NCBI RefSeq assembly: GCF_027532945.1
Contig: NZ_JAPZTZ010000001.1
Coordinates: forward strand, 1 to 64,000
Reading direction: 5' to 3'
Source: Phreatobacter sp.
GTDB lineage: Bacteria; Pseudomonadota; Alphaproteobacteria; Rhizobiales; Phreatobacteraceae
Length of the DNA: 64,000 bases
Shown here: piece by piece, positions 18,715 to 25,933 of the stretch
Position numbering within the stretch: position 1 is the first letter of the stretch
Layout: each line of letters starts with the position of its first letter
The notes under the pieces: generated by a model
The model's input: the letters and a program-made list of their open reading frames with translations, nothing else
Told to the model about the DNA's origin: nothing
The model's database searches: none
Position numbers and translations under genes: made by a program

Positions 18715-20532
<1,818 letters not shown>

Positions 20533-21040
20533 GGGAGCGGGCGTCCAGTCGGCCAATACAAAAAGGCGGGCAGCATATGTCTGGCGGCCCGCGTGAACTC
20601 TGTTGCAGTGCATCTATAGGAGGCGGCCCGTCGGCGCAACGGCGACGGCAGGCACGGTCGGGCGTCGCCGCCGCCCGTCGCAAATTGCAAGACCTGTTGC
20701 GGAATGCGAGGCCCAAACGGCGAGAGCATATGGAGGGGCACAGGTTTCGCCCACCACATCTGGAGATCTGGGGTCATTCGCTCCCACATGTTGTGGCGCC
20801 CGTCCCTGGCATCACCCGTGCAGGACAGACAACGGTCCGGCATCAGGTTACGCGTCGCCGGGCCAATGGCTCGGACGGGAGGGGGCAGCGATCTGCGACC
20901 CCTTGAGAGCGGCCTCCTCCCCTCCACGCGCCTGCCGCGTACCGCGCGGACTATCCGTGAAAACCCCCATGTCGCTGCGGCAGATTAACGCTACGGTCCG
21001 TCACGACCGTGCACCGGCTGAGGGGAGCCGCTTTCCAGCC
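20533..21040. other. 508-base intergenic region, no gene seen
   Basis: Lies between the divergent typA and Tat-peptide genes. Open frames on both strands lack start signals and recognisable content. It should contain promoters for both flanking genes. No repeat, tRNA-like fold or clear promoter pair could be picked out by eye; a small RNA or long leader cannot be excluded. Confidence 0.45.
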
Positions 21041-21394
21041 ATGACCGACGAGATCAACCAGACCAAAGACAAGCCCGCCGAGGGCTCCGCCGAGACCGGC
21101 GGGCTCCTCGACCGCCGCCTGTTCTTCTTCAAGACGCTGGCCGGAGCCGCCACCGTCGTGGTTCCCGCAGCGGTCGCAACCTCCCAGCCGGCCGAGGCGC
21201 AGCGCTTGCGTGTCACCGACAGCGACACCAATGACCGCCAGGGACGCGGCCGTGGCCGTTTCGTCCGCCGCCGCGGCACCGACAACGACCCCTTCGATGA
21301 TCCGGGCCGCGGCCGGGTGCGCACCTTTCGGCGCAATGTCCGCGTCACCGACAACGATCCGCGTGACCGGCGTGGCCGCGGACGCGGCTGGTAA
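21041..21394 (+). CDS. putative Tat-exported repeat peptide
   Basis: 117 residues from the ATG at 21041. Residues 24-54 form a probable twin-arginine signal: DRRLFFFK (R25, R26), a hydrophobic core (AGAATVVVPAAVA) and AEAQ cleavage near 53. The remaining 64 residues consist almost wholly of three repeats of the form TD(S/N)DxxDxxGRGR starting at T59, T80 and T103, linked by Arg-rich spacers. There is no Cys and no larger domain. A JmjC/cupin_4 oxygenase gene begins 21 bases downstream, so the repeats could be its hydroxylation substrate; alternatively the D-x-D-x-x-D spacing could bind calcium. Both are inference. I do not recognise the family. Confidence 0.7.
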   Translation: MTDEINQTKDKPAEGSAETGGLLDRRLFFFKTLAGAATVVVPAAVATSQPAEAQRLRVTDSDTNDRQGRGRGRFVRRRGTDNDPFDDPGRGRVRTFRRNVRVTDNDPRDRRGRGRGW

Positions 21395-21415
21395 GCCCGC
21401 CGGATCGATCCTGGC

Positions 21416-22591
21416 ATGACCCTCGCACGCGATGCCTTTGGCCTCGCCTTCGGTGCCTTGTCGGTTCCGGAGGTCCTGGCGCTGCGCGAGGACAGTCGCG
21501 CCCGCCACCTTAAGGGCGGTGATGCCAGCCGCTTCGGCGCGCTGGTGGGGATCGACGATCTCGATGCCTTCCTGCGCACCGACGCGGCCCAGACGCCCCG
21601 CGTCACCATGGCCGACTCCTCGCGCAATGGCAGTGCCGCCGTTCCCGACGACCTCTTCACCGACGAGGACGGCCGCATCGATCCGGTCGAGCTGTTTCGC
21701 CTGTTCGATGCCGGCGCGACGCTGGTCGTCTCGCAGTTCCACGAGATGCACCCGCCGCTCGCCCGCTTCTGCCGCGGCCTCGAGAAGGTCTTCCTCCATG
21801 CGGTGCAGGCCAACATCTACCTGACCCCGCCCGGCGCCCAGGGCTTTCGCACCCATTACGACACCCACGACGTGCTGGTCCTGCAGGTCTCCGGCCGCAA
21901 GGCCTGGCGCGTCTAGGACGCCATGCTCATGCCCCATGCGACGCGCAACACGCCCTGGGACGGCACGCTCCACCGGGCCGATCCGGCCGGGGCGAAGGAC
22001 GTCCTGCTCGAGGCTGGCGACGTGCTCTACGTGCCGCGCGGCGTTGCCCACGACGCCTCGGTCCAGGAGGGCGGCGAGCCGTCGCTGCATGTGACCGTGG
22101 GTCTGCTCGACCCAAGCTGGGCCGACGCGCTCAAGGCCGCCATCGATCAGATGGAGCAGACGCAGCCGGCTCTGCGCCAGTCCTTCCGCACCTGGCGCAT
22201 CGGCGATCCCGCGGTGCGTGCCGGCCTCGTCGAGGCGGCGCGGGAGCGGTTCGCGGCTGTGGCCAATGAAGCTGCGATGGACCTCGTCGCCATGAGCTTC
22301 CTCCAGCGACTTGGCACCGACCGCATGGTCATGCCCGGGCGAAGCCTCCGCACGCCCAAGCCGGGTCCCGACGACCGGCTGATCCTCGCCGATGCCGTCC
22401 ACCATGTGATCGTCCCGGTGGGCGAGGGGGCCGAACTGCGCTGGGCGGGGCCGACCCTGCCCCTCACCATGGCCGAACTCGGCTGGATCGAGCAGCTCTC
22501 GGCCGGCGCCACGCCGAGTGCCCTCGGCGTCGAACAGGCGCTTGCCTTCTGCACCCGCCTCGTGGCGCTGGGGCTTCTGGAGCGCGCCTGA
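21416..22591 (+). pseudogene. JmjC/cupin_4 oxygenase interrupted by in-frame TAG
   Basis: One reading frame of 392 codons encodes a cupin_4 (ROX-type JmjC) protein, split by a TAG at 21914-21916. The first part (166 residues) carries the iron ligands H147 and D149 in THYDTHDVLVLQVSGRKAWRV; the remainder carries the third His in LYVPRGVAHDA (about 212) and the C-terminal dimerisation/winged-helix region. Family members usually have Tyr after WRV, so TAG probably replaces TAC or TAT by one base. Relatives (YcfD/RoxA, MINA53, NO66) hydroxylate Arg or His of ribosomal proteins with 2-oxoglutarate and Fe(II). Without readthrough the metal site is incomplete. Sequencing error, a true pseudogene or amber readthrough are all possible. 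The downstream part keeps an intact frame. Confidence 0.75.
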
Positions 22592-22684
22592 CACCAGGGC
22601 CTTGCAATCAGCGGGTGCGCGTCAACGCCTCCTTAACGACGTCCATGGCATCAAGGCCTTCGGCATGACGTTGGGTCAGGTTCT

Positions 22685-23308
22685 GTGTCGAAACGTCCAT
22701 CCGTCAATTTGCACCGTCCGAACAGCACGACGATCCTCGTTGCTAACGAACAATCCTTTTCCCGGCGCATCATCCGCTCGGTGGTGACGGGGCTTGGCCG
22801 GGTCGCCGAATGCCGCACCGGCTTCGAGGTGATCGAACAGGCCGAGCAGCTCCGGCCGAACCTGATCATCCTCGGCTACAATCTCGCTGGTCTCGATGGG
22901 CTGGAGGTTACCCAGCTCCTGCGCCGGGCCCAGGGCGGCCTGCAATACACGCCCATCATCATGATCTCGGGCTTGCCCACCCGCACCGCCGTCCTCGGCG
23001 CGGTGACCGCCGGGGTCCACGAATATGTCGCCCGTCCGTTCAGCATGAAGACGCTGCGCGCCAGGGCCGAGGCCGTCCTCGCCATGCCACGGCCCTTCCT
23101 GCGCACCCGCGTCTATTTTGGCCCCATCCCCCGCGCCAAGATGGTGCGCTCGGAGGTTCTCGGCCGCGTCGGCGAATCCGCCATGGCCAGCATGATCTGC
23201 GGTGTCCATCACGGCCGTGCCGACGAACGCCAATGTCCGCTCGGCCTCAATTGCCTGTGCAAGGACTATGTCCGTCCGACCCAGCAGGCCGAGATTGTCG
23301 GACTCTGA
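22685..23308 (+). CDS. degenerate receiver-domain protein with Cys/His tail
   Basis: 207 residues from the GTG at 22685. Residues 15-135 have the CheY-like fold pattern, but the phosphoacceptor Asp is Gly (G64 in IILGYNLAGLDG), the acidic pair is N21-E22 and the conserved Lys is Arg (R117 in ARPFS). It is therefore a pseudo-receiver, unlikely to be phosphorylated. The tail (140-207) has C172, H175, H176, C184, C190 and C192, a possible metal site. It probably acts through protein-protein contact. It lies tail to tail, 3 bases from the end of the neighbouring PAS-GGDEF-EAL gene. Confidence 0.75.
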   Translation: MSKRPSVNLHRPNSTTILVANEQSFSRRIIRSVVTGLGRVAECRTGFEVIEQAEQLRPNLIILGYNLAGLDGLEVTQLLRRAQGGLQYTPIIMISGLPTRTAVLGAVTAGVHEYVARPFSMKTLRARAEAVLAMPRPFLRTRVYFGPIPRAKMVRSEVLGRVGESAMASMICGVHHGRADERQCPLGLNCLCKDYVRPTQQAEIVGL

Positions 23309-23311
23309 GCC

Positions 23312-25933
23312 TCAGGCGACCGCCTCGAAACCCTCGACCCGTGCGCGCTCGGCGATCCACGCCTCCAGTGTGGCAGGCGGCAGGGCCGGGGCGAAAAGAT
23401 AGCCCTGTATCACGTGGCAGCGCAGGCCCTGCAGGAACCGCCGCTGCGGTTCGGTCTCCACGCCCTCCGCCACGACGGTGAGCCCGAGGCTCTGGCCGAT
23501 GCGGATGACGGCGGAGGCCACGGCGCGGGCGTTCTTGTCGCTCTCCAGGCCATGGATGAAGCTCTGGTCGAGCTTGATCTCCTCGATCGGCAGCGTCGAA
23601 AGGGACGAGAGGCTGGAATAGCCCGTGCCGAAATCGTCGAGCGACAGTCGAACGCCGAGCCGCGCCACGGCCTCGACGGTCGCCCGCGTGGCCTCGCAAT
23701 CGTCCATCATGATCCCCTCGGTGATCTCGATGGTCAGCACGTCGGGTTCCAGGCCCGCCGCCTCCAGCGCTGCGGTGACGATGAGCGGCAGGCGGCGGTT
23801 GCGGAAGTTCATCGGCGAGAGGTTCACCGAGACGGAGGGAATGGTGAGCCCGCTGGCGCGCCAGGCGGCGACCTGCCGGCAGGCCTCGACGAGAGCCCAT
23901 TCGCCGATGGCCTCGATCAACCCATATTCCTCGGCGAGGCCGATGAAGCGCGACGGTGGCACCTGGCCGAAGACAGGGTGATGCCAGCGGGCGAGCGCTT
24001 CGAGCCCGTGCAACGTGCCGTCCTCGCCGCTCAGCTGCGGCTGGTAGTGCAGCTGCAGGTGGCCGAGGGCGAGCGATTCCTTCAGCGCCTCGCCCATCCT
24101 CAGCCGCTCCTCCACCTCGCGGTTCATCGCGGGATCATAGAAGCGGTAGGCGCCACGGCCGGCGTTCTTCGCCGCATACATGGCGGTGTCGGCGTGTTTC
24201 AGCAGTTCCTCGCGATCGGCGCTGTCGCCGGGATAGAGGCTGATGCCGATGCTGGCGGTGGTCGACAGCATCATCGAATCGATGGCCAGGGGCTGCGACA
24301 GCGCCTTGACGATGCGCTCGGCGACCATCGAGGCATGGGTACTCTCGCAACTGCCGAGGATGACGACGAACTCGTCGCCGCCGAGGCGGCTCACCATGTC
24401 GGTCGGGCGGACCTGCTCTCTGAGGCGGCGGCCGATTTCCACCAGCAGCGCATCGCCGGCCGAATGGCCGAGCGTATCATTGACGTCCTTGAACCCATCG
24501 AGGTCGAGGTAGAGCAGCGCCATGCCGGCAAGGCCACCCTCATCGATCCTTGCGATGCGTTGATCGATCTCATCGGCCAGCTTCGAGCGGTTCGGCAGGC
24601 CGGTCAGTGTGTCGTAATAGGCGAGCTGGGCGATATGGGCCTTGGCCTCATGCCGCTCGATGGCGAGGGCCGCGAGGTGAAGGCACGCCTCCACCAGGCG
24701 CTCGTGCCAGGCGCTCGGACCGCGTTTCTCGCGGTAGTAGAAGGCGAAGGTGCCCGCGACACGGCCGTCCTTCAGCTTGATCGGGCTCGACCAGCAGGCC
24801 TTGAGGCCAAGCGGCAGGGGCAGCGACTTGTAGGGCGCCCAGAGCGGATCGGTCTCGATATCCTCGACGAGCACCGGCTCGCCCCGGAAGGCGGCCGTGC
24901 CACAGGAGCCGACGCCCGGCCCGATCGCTAGTCCGTCGATGGCGGCGGAGTAATGGTCTGGCAGGCTGGGGCCGGCGATGGGACGAAGGGTCTTCTCTTC
25001 GTCCACGCGAATCATCGAGCACACGACGCCCGGGGCGATGGCCTCCACCTCGCGGCAGATGAGGGTCGCTACCGCCTCGAGTTCGTCGTCGCGGGCGACC
25101 GCCTCCAGCACACGCTGCTGGAGCACCTGCGACTGGCGCGTCTCGGTAATGTTGGAGATGACACAGACAGCGTTGCGCAACTTGCCGGCGTCATCGAAGA
25201 CCGGGTTTACCGTCGCCGCGATCCAGAGCTCCCGGCCGGCCTTGTCATAGCCGATGAGTTCGATGGTGACGCTCTTCTCGCCATGCGACAGACCCGCGAG
25301 CCCACGCAGGATCGAGGAGTCGGTGTGCTGGCCGGCGAGCAAGGTGGAGGGGACCTGCCCGATCAACTCCTCGCGCGAATAGCCGAACATGTCGATGAAC
25401 GACCGGTTGGCATAGACGATCCGCTGATGCCGGTCGGTGATGATGACCGCACGGTCCGTTTCGTTGGCGACCAGCGACAGGAGATAGAGCTCCTCGCGGC
25501 GCCGCACCTCCTCGGTGACGTCCTTCACGAAGGAGGCATAGTAGATGCAGCCGTCGATGGTGGTGCGGGAGAGCGAGAGCGAGCCGAAGACGGTCGAGCC
25601 GTCGGGCCTGACGATCGGGACCTCCACGGTGGTGCCGACGAAGCGATTCTTCGCGCCATGGCGGTTGCGGTCGATCCCGGCATCGTGGTTCTGGCGATGC
25701 TCCTCTGGCACCAGGAGGGAGACGTTGCGGCCTAGGACCTCCTCGCGCTTGAGGCCCCACATGCGTTCCGCCGCTGCATTGAACAGGACGACGCAATTGG
25801 CGTGATCGATGACGACGACGCCGTCGATGGCCTGTTCCAGGATGGGGCCGAACAGACCCATGTCCTTGATGGAGACCTGTTGCATGGTCATGCCGGTCGT
25901 TCCGTTGCCCCGCCCTCGTCTGGGGGCGTTCAT
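23312..25933 (-). CDS. PAS-PAS-GAF-GGDEF-EAL protein, DosP-like
   Basis: 873 residues; an alternative start at 25891 (MTMQQVS) would remove 14 residues and has a better upstream GGAAC. Domains: PAS (about 25-145), PAS (150-270), GAF (275-430), GGDEF (435-605, motif GGDEF at 518-522 with inhibitory-site RPTD at 509-512), EAL (610-865, EAL at 645-647, DDFGTGYSS). The whole order and sequence resemble E. coli DosP, a heme O2-sensing c-di-GMP phosphodiesterase. The first PAS has EEHRQNHDAGIDRNRHG (H79, H83, H92), where heme-PAS proteins place their proximal His, but heme binding is uncertain. It could both make and degrade c-di-GMP. No membrane segments, so cytoplasmic. Confidence 0.9.
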   Translation of the reverse strand: MNAPRRGRGNGTTGMTMQQVSIKDMGLFGPILEQAIDGVVVIDHANCVVLFNAAAERMWGLKREEVLGRNVSLLVPEEHRQNHDAGIDRNRHGAKNRFVGTTVEVPIVRPDGSTVFGSLSLSRTTIDGCIYYASFVKDVTEEVRRREELYLLSLVANETDRAVIITDRHQRIVYANRSFIDMFGYSREELIGQVPSTLLAGQHTDSSILRGLAGLSHGEKSVTIELIGYDKAGRELWIAATVNPVFDDAGKLRNAVCVISNITETRQSQVLQQRVLEAVARDDELEAVATLICREVEAIAPGVVCSMIRVDEEKTLRPIAGPSLPDHYSAAIDGLAIGPGVGSCGTAAFRGEPVLVEDIETDPLWAPYKSLPLPLGLKACWSSPIKLKDGRVAGTFAFYYREKRGPSAWHERLVEACLHLAALAIERHEAKAHIAQLAYYDTLTGLPNRSKLADEIDQRIARIDEGGLAGMALLYLDLDGFKDVNDTLGHSAGDALLVEIGRRLREQVRPTDMVSRLGGDEFVVILGSCESTHASMVAERIVKALSQPLAIDSMMLSTTASIGISLYPGDSADREELLKHADTAMYAAKNAGRGAYRFYDPAMNREVEERLRMGEALKESLALGHLQLHYQPQLSGEDGTLHGLEALARWHHPVFGQVPPSRFIGLAEEYGLIEAIGEWALVEACRQVAAWRASGLTIPSVSVNLSPMNFRNRRLPLIVTAALEAAGLEPDVLTIEITEGIMMDDCEATRATVEAVARLGVRLSLDDFGTGYSSLSSLSTLPIEEIKLDQSFIHGLESDKNARAVASAVIRIGQSLGLTVVAEGVETEPQRRFLQGLRCHVIQGYLFAPALPPATLEAWIAERARVEGFEAVA

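Follow-up and report, generated by a model that had tools for sequence, protein, structure and literature searches.

The window, i.e., the whole stretch of 64,000 nucleotides of Phreatobacter DNA that was analyzed, contains a gene for a short repeat peptide and, on the same strand, a gene for an oxygenase of the JmjC_2 (cupin_4) family. The pair, its internal features and its flanking genes are given below; the flank names typA, response regulator and GGDEF/EAL, both here and in the relative G002, are what we take these genes to be from their sequence.

18715-20613, - strand: TypA-like GTPase gene flanking the pair, read from sequence
21041-21394, + strand: Tat-type repeat peptide gene, presumed substrate, 117 aa plus stop
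21041-21202, + strand: N-region and signal peptide, residues 1-54, with twin Arg at 25-26, a hydrophobic stretch and AEA/Q, read by eye
21215-21256, + strand: repeat 1, TDSDTNDRQGRGRG
21278-21316, + strand: repeat 2, TDNDPFDDPGRGR
21347-21388, + strand: repeat 3, TDNDPRDRRGRGRG
21416-22591, + strand: JmjC_2 (cupin_4) oxygenase gene, 391 codons plus final stop, interrupted at codon 167
21752-22126, + strand: PF08007 JmjC_2 domain, E 1.2e-28, the stop being read through by the search tool
21854-21862, + strand: His-x-Asp pair of metal ligands (codons 147-149), conserved without exception in the intact relatives aligned in A4 and A6
21914-21916, + strand: in-frame TAG within the oxygenase gene, codon 167 of 391; the frame is uninterrupted in 9/9 genus relatives
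22049-22051, + strand: third metal-ligand His, codon 212, downstream of the in-frame stop
22685-23308, + strand: response-regulator-like gene flanking the pair, read from sequence
23312-25933, - strand: GGDEF/EAL-like gene flanking the pair, read from sequence

The initial annotation described a protein of 117 residues with a twin-arginine-like signal and three repeats, and the open reading frame, the signal and the repeats were all confirmed by the sequence. The signal consists of DRRLFFFK, a hydrophobic stretch and a cleavage site (AEA/Q) recognized by eye, after which a mature part of 63 residues follows, with three TD-x-D repeats that each have a GRGR end. At the nucleotide level, direct repeats of 62 nt each start at 21209, 21272 and 21341, of which the second shares 65% and the third 71% identity with the first. 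The twin Arg is invariant in 11/11 genus rows of the alignment and TatC is encoded in the window's own genome, but the Tat models of Pfam and NCBIfam gave no match to the window peptide. The initial annotation could name no described family with these repeats. In the database searches the peptide obtained no family from Pfam (a single sub-threshold match, E 0.054) or from NCBIfam (zero matches). An antisense open reading frame of 547 aa (20951-22594) was rejected as a shadow frame, with selection acting on the forward frames.

The ATG of the oxygenase gene (21416) lies 21 bases past the peptide stop. A cupin_4 oxygenase had been annotated at this distance from the peptide; the JmjC_2 match and the spacing hold, but the frame is broken by the TAG. 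PF08007 (JmjC_2) matches both halves of the gene, at 50.7 and 38.1 bits (curated cut-off 22), and the whole domain with the stop read through scores 100.6 bits, above the gathering score. As read, the product has 166 aa and is without the third metal-ligand His. Reading of the TAG as a coding codon was rejected, since the relatives have open frames, and the enzyme may have been lost in the window's own strain via the stop. That the stop is a real mutation of this strain, and the system in the window dead or in decay, is a substantial possibility, although we lean slightly away from it. The TAG itself is in its favor, and so is the finding that PF08007 matched no gene of the 4.13-Mb assembly other than the window's. 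Repeat 1 of the window peptide also differs from the genus majority in three residues, and G008 has one of these three changes as well. Against it, the codons that differ from those of the relative G006 comprise 34 synonymous and 10 nonsynonymous ones before the TAG and 53 and 17, respectively, after it, with no sign of decay downstream; the lesion is therefore either very recent or an assembly error.

Homologs of the peptide were found in 10 of the 12 genomes of the genus Phreatobacter (own genome included), and the oxygenase gene lies directly downstream of the peptide gene in all 10. Both genes are absent from G002 and G010. In G002 (100% estimated completeness, 50 contigs) the flanking gene order is that of the window and only the pair is missing (L183), so that adjacency in the relatives stands alongside joint absence at a syntenic site. 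The absence in G010 is weak evidence, because that assembly is 85% complete and has no typA match either. Among the three segments compared, the mature peptide has the lowest mean pN/pS (0.154, 45 genus pairs), versus 0.394 in the 31 residues before the mature part and 0.348 in the oxygenase; within the genus, purifying selection on the mature peptide is thus strong. A further copy of the peptide, away from the pair, is found in G007 (L014/L122, 599134-599460); it is 66% identical and has no oxygenase match within 1.5 kb on either side. Several weak peptide matches were discarded: L002 (own genome, E 0.054) and L015 (G009) within the genus and L012 and L013 outside it have no D-x-D repeat peptide at the site, and matches L027-L033 (E 2.6e-4 to 0.0092) were left out as weak.

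When 397 genomes of the order were searched with the oxygenase, 26 had a match with an E value of 1e-10 or lower, and 16 of these genomes lie outside the genus. Seven of the eight best non-genus matches (at least 92 bits) lie near a D-x-D-rich Tat protein (L062-L064, L066-L069), and the eighth is L065, which has a radical SAM gene beside it. In 385 genomes of the class, profile A4, made from these enzymes, set 13 strong matches (at least 275 bits, own included) apart from 44 weak ones (at most 177 bits). Four more genomes with strong matches, all of family code f74, came from 367 genomes sampled across the phylum, together with one borderline match (G1047, 239 bits) and weak ones; this sample contained no strong oxygenase match outside the class.

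A common filter was run on all loci with about 1.5 kb of flank, some flanks being shortened by contig ends; it required an open reading frame of <450 aa with twin Arg (or Arg-Lys) and a hydrophobic stretch, followed by two or more D-x-D and an Asp content of at least 10%. In the class, an adjacent Tat D-x-D protein was present at 11 of the 12 strong loci (the window's excluded) versus 0 of the 44 weak JmjC_2 loci; the order sample gave 7/8 among the best non-genus loci and 0/8 among the weaker ones, and the phylum sample 4/4 among the new strong loci and 0/7 among borderline or weak ones. The lone exception in the class is L111 (G596), a strong oxygenase whose contig ends 28 bases past the gene, with no peptide within the contig. 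Co-occurrence across the 385 genomes follows the same pattern (both genes in 11, oxygenase only in 1, peptide only in 0, neither in 373; Fisher's exact test, P = 2e-20, kinship not corrected), and linkage and co-occurrence counts alike take in related genomes. The peptide and oxygenase genes are linked and co-occur. Conserved, as opposed to random, linkage had been put forward in the initial annotation as the check on a modified-peptide system; linkage proved conserved in the genus, the class and the phylum sample, which supports that reading on genomic grounds.

A profile of the repeats (A5, E 0.001) matched 11 of the 385 genomes, each of which is one of the 12 that have a strong oxygenase match, and none of the 373 class genomes without one. 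The rows of A5 are peptides beside strong oxygenases from ten genomes of the same sample plus one genus majority row, so the refinding of these peptides was favored, which does not explain the missing matches elsewhere; divergent peptides would escape A5, and the D-x-D-P types (L064, L066-L069) come from neighborhood scans instead. The 11 positive genomes belong to six family codes (f1, f55, f64, f67, f115 and f179), of which f64, f67 and f115 also hold genomes with neither gene (G408, G641 and G459); in G641 and G459 the JmjC_2 matches are weak only.

A peptide without an oxygenase neighbor had been named as a finding against the pairing, and such peptides do occur: besides the G007 copy, A5 matched 11 other contigs in four genomes (five in G625, three in G399, two in G543 and one in G632), and the four of these matches that were read are Tat repeat proteins. 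Yet the oxygenase is present elsewhere in each of these genomes, G007 included. One of these four, on a contig other than that of the oxygenase (L140, 1264-2073), has a C-terminal PG_binding_1 domain (E 1.6e-18).

When 27 neighborhoods were clustered, the oxygenase was found at 23 loci and the peptide in one cluster of 15 and another of 4, and any further gene family was present in at most 5 of the 27. A short precursor-like gene beside a tailoring enzyme gene, one feature of RiPP loci, is found here. ExbB, ExbD and TonB genes lie beside the pair in three genomes of one family (L067, 11405-13987; L068 and L069 by clustering), where a link to metal uptake is possible.

All 16 rows of A4 have the residues N, HxD, K and H, which A6 keeps as well, and their roles in this enzyme are presumably those of their counterparts in NO66 and MINA. 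The intact relatives thus have the complete metal triad (HxD...H) together with the 2-oxoglutarate residues. Their profile matched NO66 (2.8e-49) and MINA (2.8e-42) in the PDB, followed by YxbC (7.4e-19) and an L16 arginine hydroxylase (1e-10). In a tree of 55 chosen JmjC_2 rows, including 11 of the 44 weak class loci, the peptide-linked enzymes cluster together (4 label changes versus a shuffled mean of 18.8, 0/500 as low); the branch leading to the genus is long, 18 of the 52 inner branches are open and long-branch warnings were raised, and the peptide-linked enzymes may have a single origin.

A more distant pair is carried by a plasmid of Streptomyces clavuligerus (L156, 5772-7167), whose enzyme is 35% identical to that of G625 over 98%. 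A 48-aa peptide without a Tat signal, an annotated gene chosen by position and not via the filter, precedes the JmjC_2 gene and has two D-x-D-P-x-D-P units (ADNDPSDPP and ADPDPFDPVI). A gene for an S9 peptidase adjoins this pair. Of the eleven plasmid relatives scanned for a D-x-D peptide (L156-L166), S. clavuligerus was the 1/11 positive; an open reading frame flagged in L159 was rejected because it has no repeats, and searches of plasmids with the peptide gave no match.

Altogether 45 partner peptides were collected, ten of them from the genus; the set is incomplete, since L052 and L171 contain two or more further ones. D-x-D occurs in 45/45, in a collection whose filters favor D-x-D and Asp and which partners without D-x-D would escape. 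The element GxGR is present in 37 and missing from 8, and 36/45 have no His in the mature part, mature starts being set by rule (row G1030a is cut too early). Each peptide has 1 to 14 D-x-D units, e.g., nine TDQDTGAYADPVGQGRG-like units in the L107 partner and twelve D-x-D units in that of L117, and in some genomes several peptides accompany one strong oxygenase match. Furthermore, a motif L-x-x-x-(D/E/Q)-I precedes the twin Arg in 24/45 peptides, versus 0.54 expected by shuffling, a figure that is descriptive because the motif was widened once the first count was known and many of the peptides are related to one another; a stricter form was found in 13/29 versus 0.1 expected. In 20 of the 23 motif-bearing Tat peptides it lies seven residues before the twin Arg. 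No such motif was found in the peptides examined from the window's genus or from f55, f64 and f115.

We consider it probable that the two genes form a module in which the JmjC_2 enzyme hydroxylates the repeats of its partner, most likely at Asp, before Tat export. The oxygenase, a relative of NO66 and MINA, would act in the cytoplasm with Fe(II), O2 and 2-oxoglutarate and oxidize side chains of the D-x-D repeats, most likely by hydroxylating the beta carbon of Asp. The product would then leave through the Tat pathway; because Tat export follows synthesis, there would be time for modification in the cytosol. In many families the L-x-x-x-(D/E/Q)-I element is probably the leader on which the enzyme docks, and one enzyme may serve several peptides, whether linked to it or not. 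Once in the periplasm or cell wall, repeats rich in hydroxy-Asp would probably bind metal (calcium or iron); metal binding is the weakest step of the proposal and is based on composition, on the ExbB/ExbD/TonB neighbors in one family and on the peptidoglycan-binding fusion. The pairing, which recurs in alphaproteobacteria that are unrelated to each other, suggests an undescribed bacterial route of modifying a repeat protein before export.

Hydroxylation as the reaction fits the enzyme family. As to the target, the initial annotation had named Arg, His or other residues for ROX-type enzymes, and what the partners have in common is Asp, not Arg or His; because D-x-D is common to them while GxGR and His are often missing, Asp is the best candidate target and Arg a less likely one. 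The same module acting on the Arg of the GxGR element, or on the Gly that follows, is an unlikely but serious alternative. YcfD hydroxylates Arg of a ribosomal protein, an L16 arginine hydroxylase is among the JmjC_2 kin in the PDB, and all three window repeats have GRGR. With GxGR in 37/45 peptides, its Arg is very common and could be the target in most of the species; on the other hand, the 8 peptides without GxGR, that of S. clavuligerus included, would have no such target, whereas all 45 have D-x-D, subject to the collection bias noted above.

Distinctly less likely is that the enzyme makes a crosslink, a macrocycle or a backbone change in the repeats with no hydroxylation at all. A title on macrocyclization in RiPPs by an alpha-ketoglutarate-dependent dioxygenase, cited by PMC12710340, speaks for such chemistry, but NO66 and MINA, the closest solved structures, and the RiPP JmjC enzymes BpmG, PbsQ and BipG are named as hydroxylases. 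BpmG and PbsQ are described as hydroxylating Orn of a precursor peptide (PMC12257519), and so is BipG (PMC12707348). These enzymes of biphenomycin-type RiPP clusters offer a close parallel, as JmjC/cupin-like hydroxylases acting on the precursor of their own cluster. The clusters as described there add an MNIO, an arginase and a B12 radical SAM enzyme and target Orn, whereas the present system has two genes, a Tat signal and Asp repeats; arginase, MNIO, B12-rSAM and an FRF precursor do not characterize our loci, where no third family exceeds 5/27 neighborhoods (by clustering, not HMM) and the partners are Asp-repeat proteins.

The repeats could instead stay unmodified, as a calcium or polyanion type, with the oxygenase acting elsewhere, e.g., on a ribosomal protein, and with linkage reflecting co-regulation; we regard this as improbable, slightly more so than a crosslink. 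Asp-rich repeats can bind calcium unmodified, and the repeats of thrombospondin type 3, dockerin and RTX proteins resemble those studied here in D-x-D spacing and Gly-rich ends. Ribosomal proteins are moreover the targets of NO66 (RIOX1), MINA53 (RIOX2) and YcfD, which are JmjC_2 kin with the same N/HxD/K/H pattern, NO66 being the best PDB match; NO66 and MINA53 are described as hydroxylating His. Against this reading, the peptides scanned have no Pfam match to these or other known calcium-binding repeat families, A5 matched no genome of the 385 without this oxygenase subfamily, and none of the 44 weaker JmjC_2 loci has the peptide. The ribosomal oxygenases share sequence kinship with this enzyme but differ in gene context, its neighbor being a predicted exported repeat protein that mostly lacks His in the mature part. 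Finally, it is very improbable that the peptide carries the oxygenase out of the cytoplasm via Tat: small Tat proteins near enzymes have been modeled (TIGR02811, formate dehydrogenase region TAT target, likewise short and without an assigned role), but the matches here are weak, starting in the signal region and reaching at best 18.7 bits versus a cut-off of 48.45, and the range of D-x-D units, the several peptides per enzyme and the cytosolic location of 2-oxoglutarate all argue against it.

Enzyme-modified ribosomal peptides and proteins are known already, and what would be unusual in the proposed hydroxylation module is the substrate and the export route. Fusions of an RRE with JmjC (PF08007) are a further known system, and bacterial JmjC homologs with RiPP-like gene surroundings have been noted (PMC12710340); the passage concerned has no Tat-exported or Asp-repeat substrate, and "twin-arginine" has 0 occurrences in the main text. 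Within the literature searched, whose coverage leaves out most subscription papers, nothing was found on twin-arginine with JmjC and RiPP or on cupin_4 with a precursor peptide, PMC12710340 alone was found on PF08007 with RiPP, and titles and abstract openings held no Tat plus JmjC peptide system. If the proposal is true, exported repeat proteins are a new type of substrate for bacterial JmjC_2 kin of the human ribosomal oxygenases, and post-translational hydroxylation is joined to Tat export, a pairing not found in that literature. The partner peptides vary around a short core of Asp and so also provide natural substrate variants for studying enzyme recognition. A broader version, which we find doubtful, is an as yet undescribed but widespread class of secreted proteins rich in beta-hydroxy-aspartate, in which one promiscuous JmjC oxygenase acts on any cytoplasmic D-x-D-repeat protein and the Tat-exported products form a metal-binding layer or metallophore; this would be a genetically encoded, ribosomal-template counterpart of the hydroxy-Asp siderophores in periplasm and cell wall.

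Other JmjC_2 relatives lie in different surroundings, several of those on plasmids in peptide-like clusters of another type. On three Streptomyces plasmids (L162, L163 and L164), where no D-x-D peptide was found, two cupin-domain genes and an M13 metallopeptidase gene are present, with genes for an MFS transporter and a TPR protein also in two of them. The relative on plasmid pPg_03 of Pseudanabaena galeata (L157) lies near genes for a LanM lanthipeptide synthetase and NHLP secretion, and the copies on Mycetohabitans and R. etli plasmids have radical SAM genes nearby. In G066 (L065; 8912-10108, 10092-11300 and 11355-11729), JmjC_2 overlaps a radical SAM gene and adjoins a short, Gly-rich peptide with YxQ-type repeats, and this locus looks like a separate RiPP cluster.
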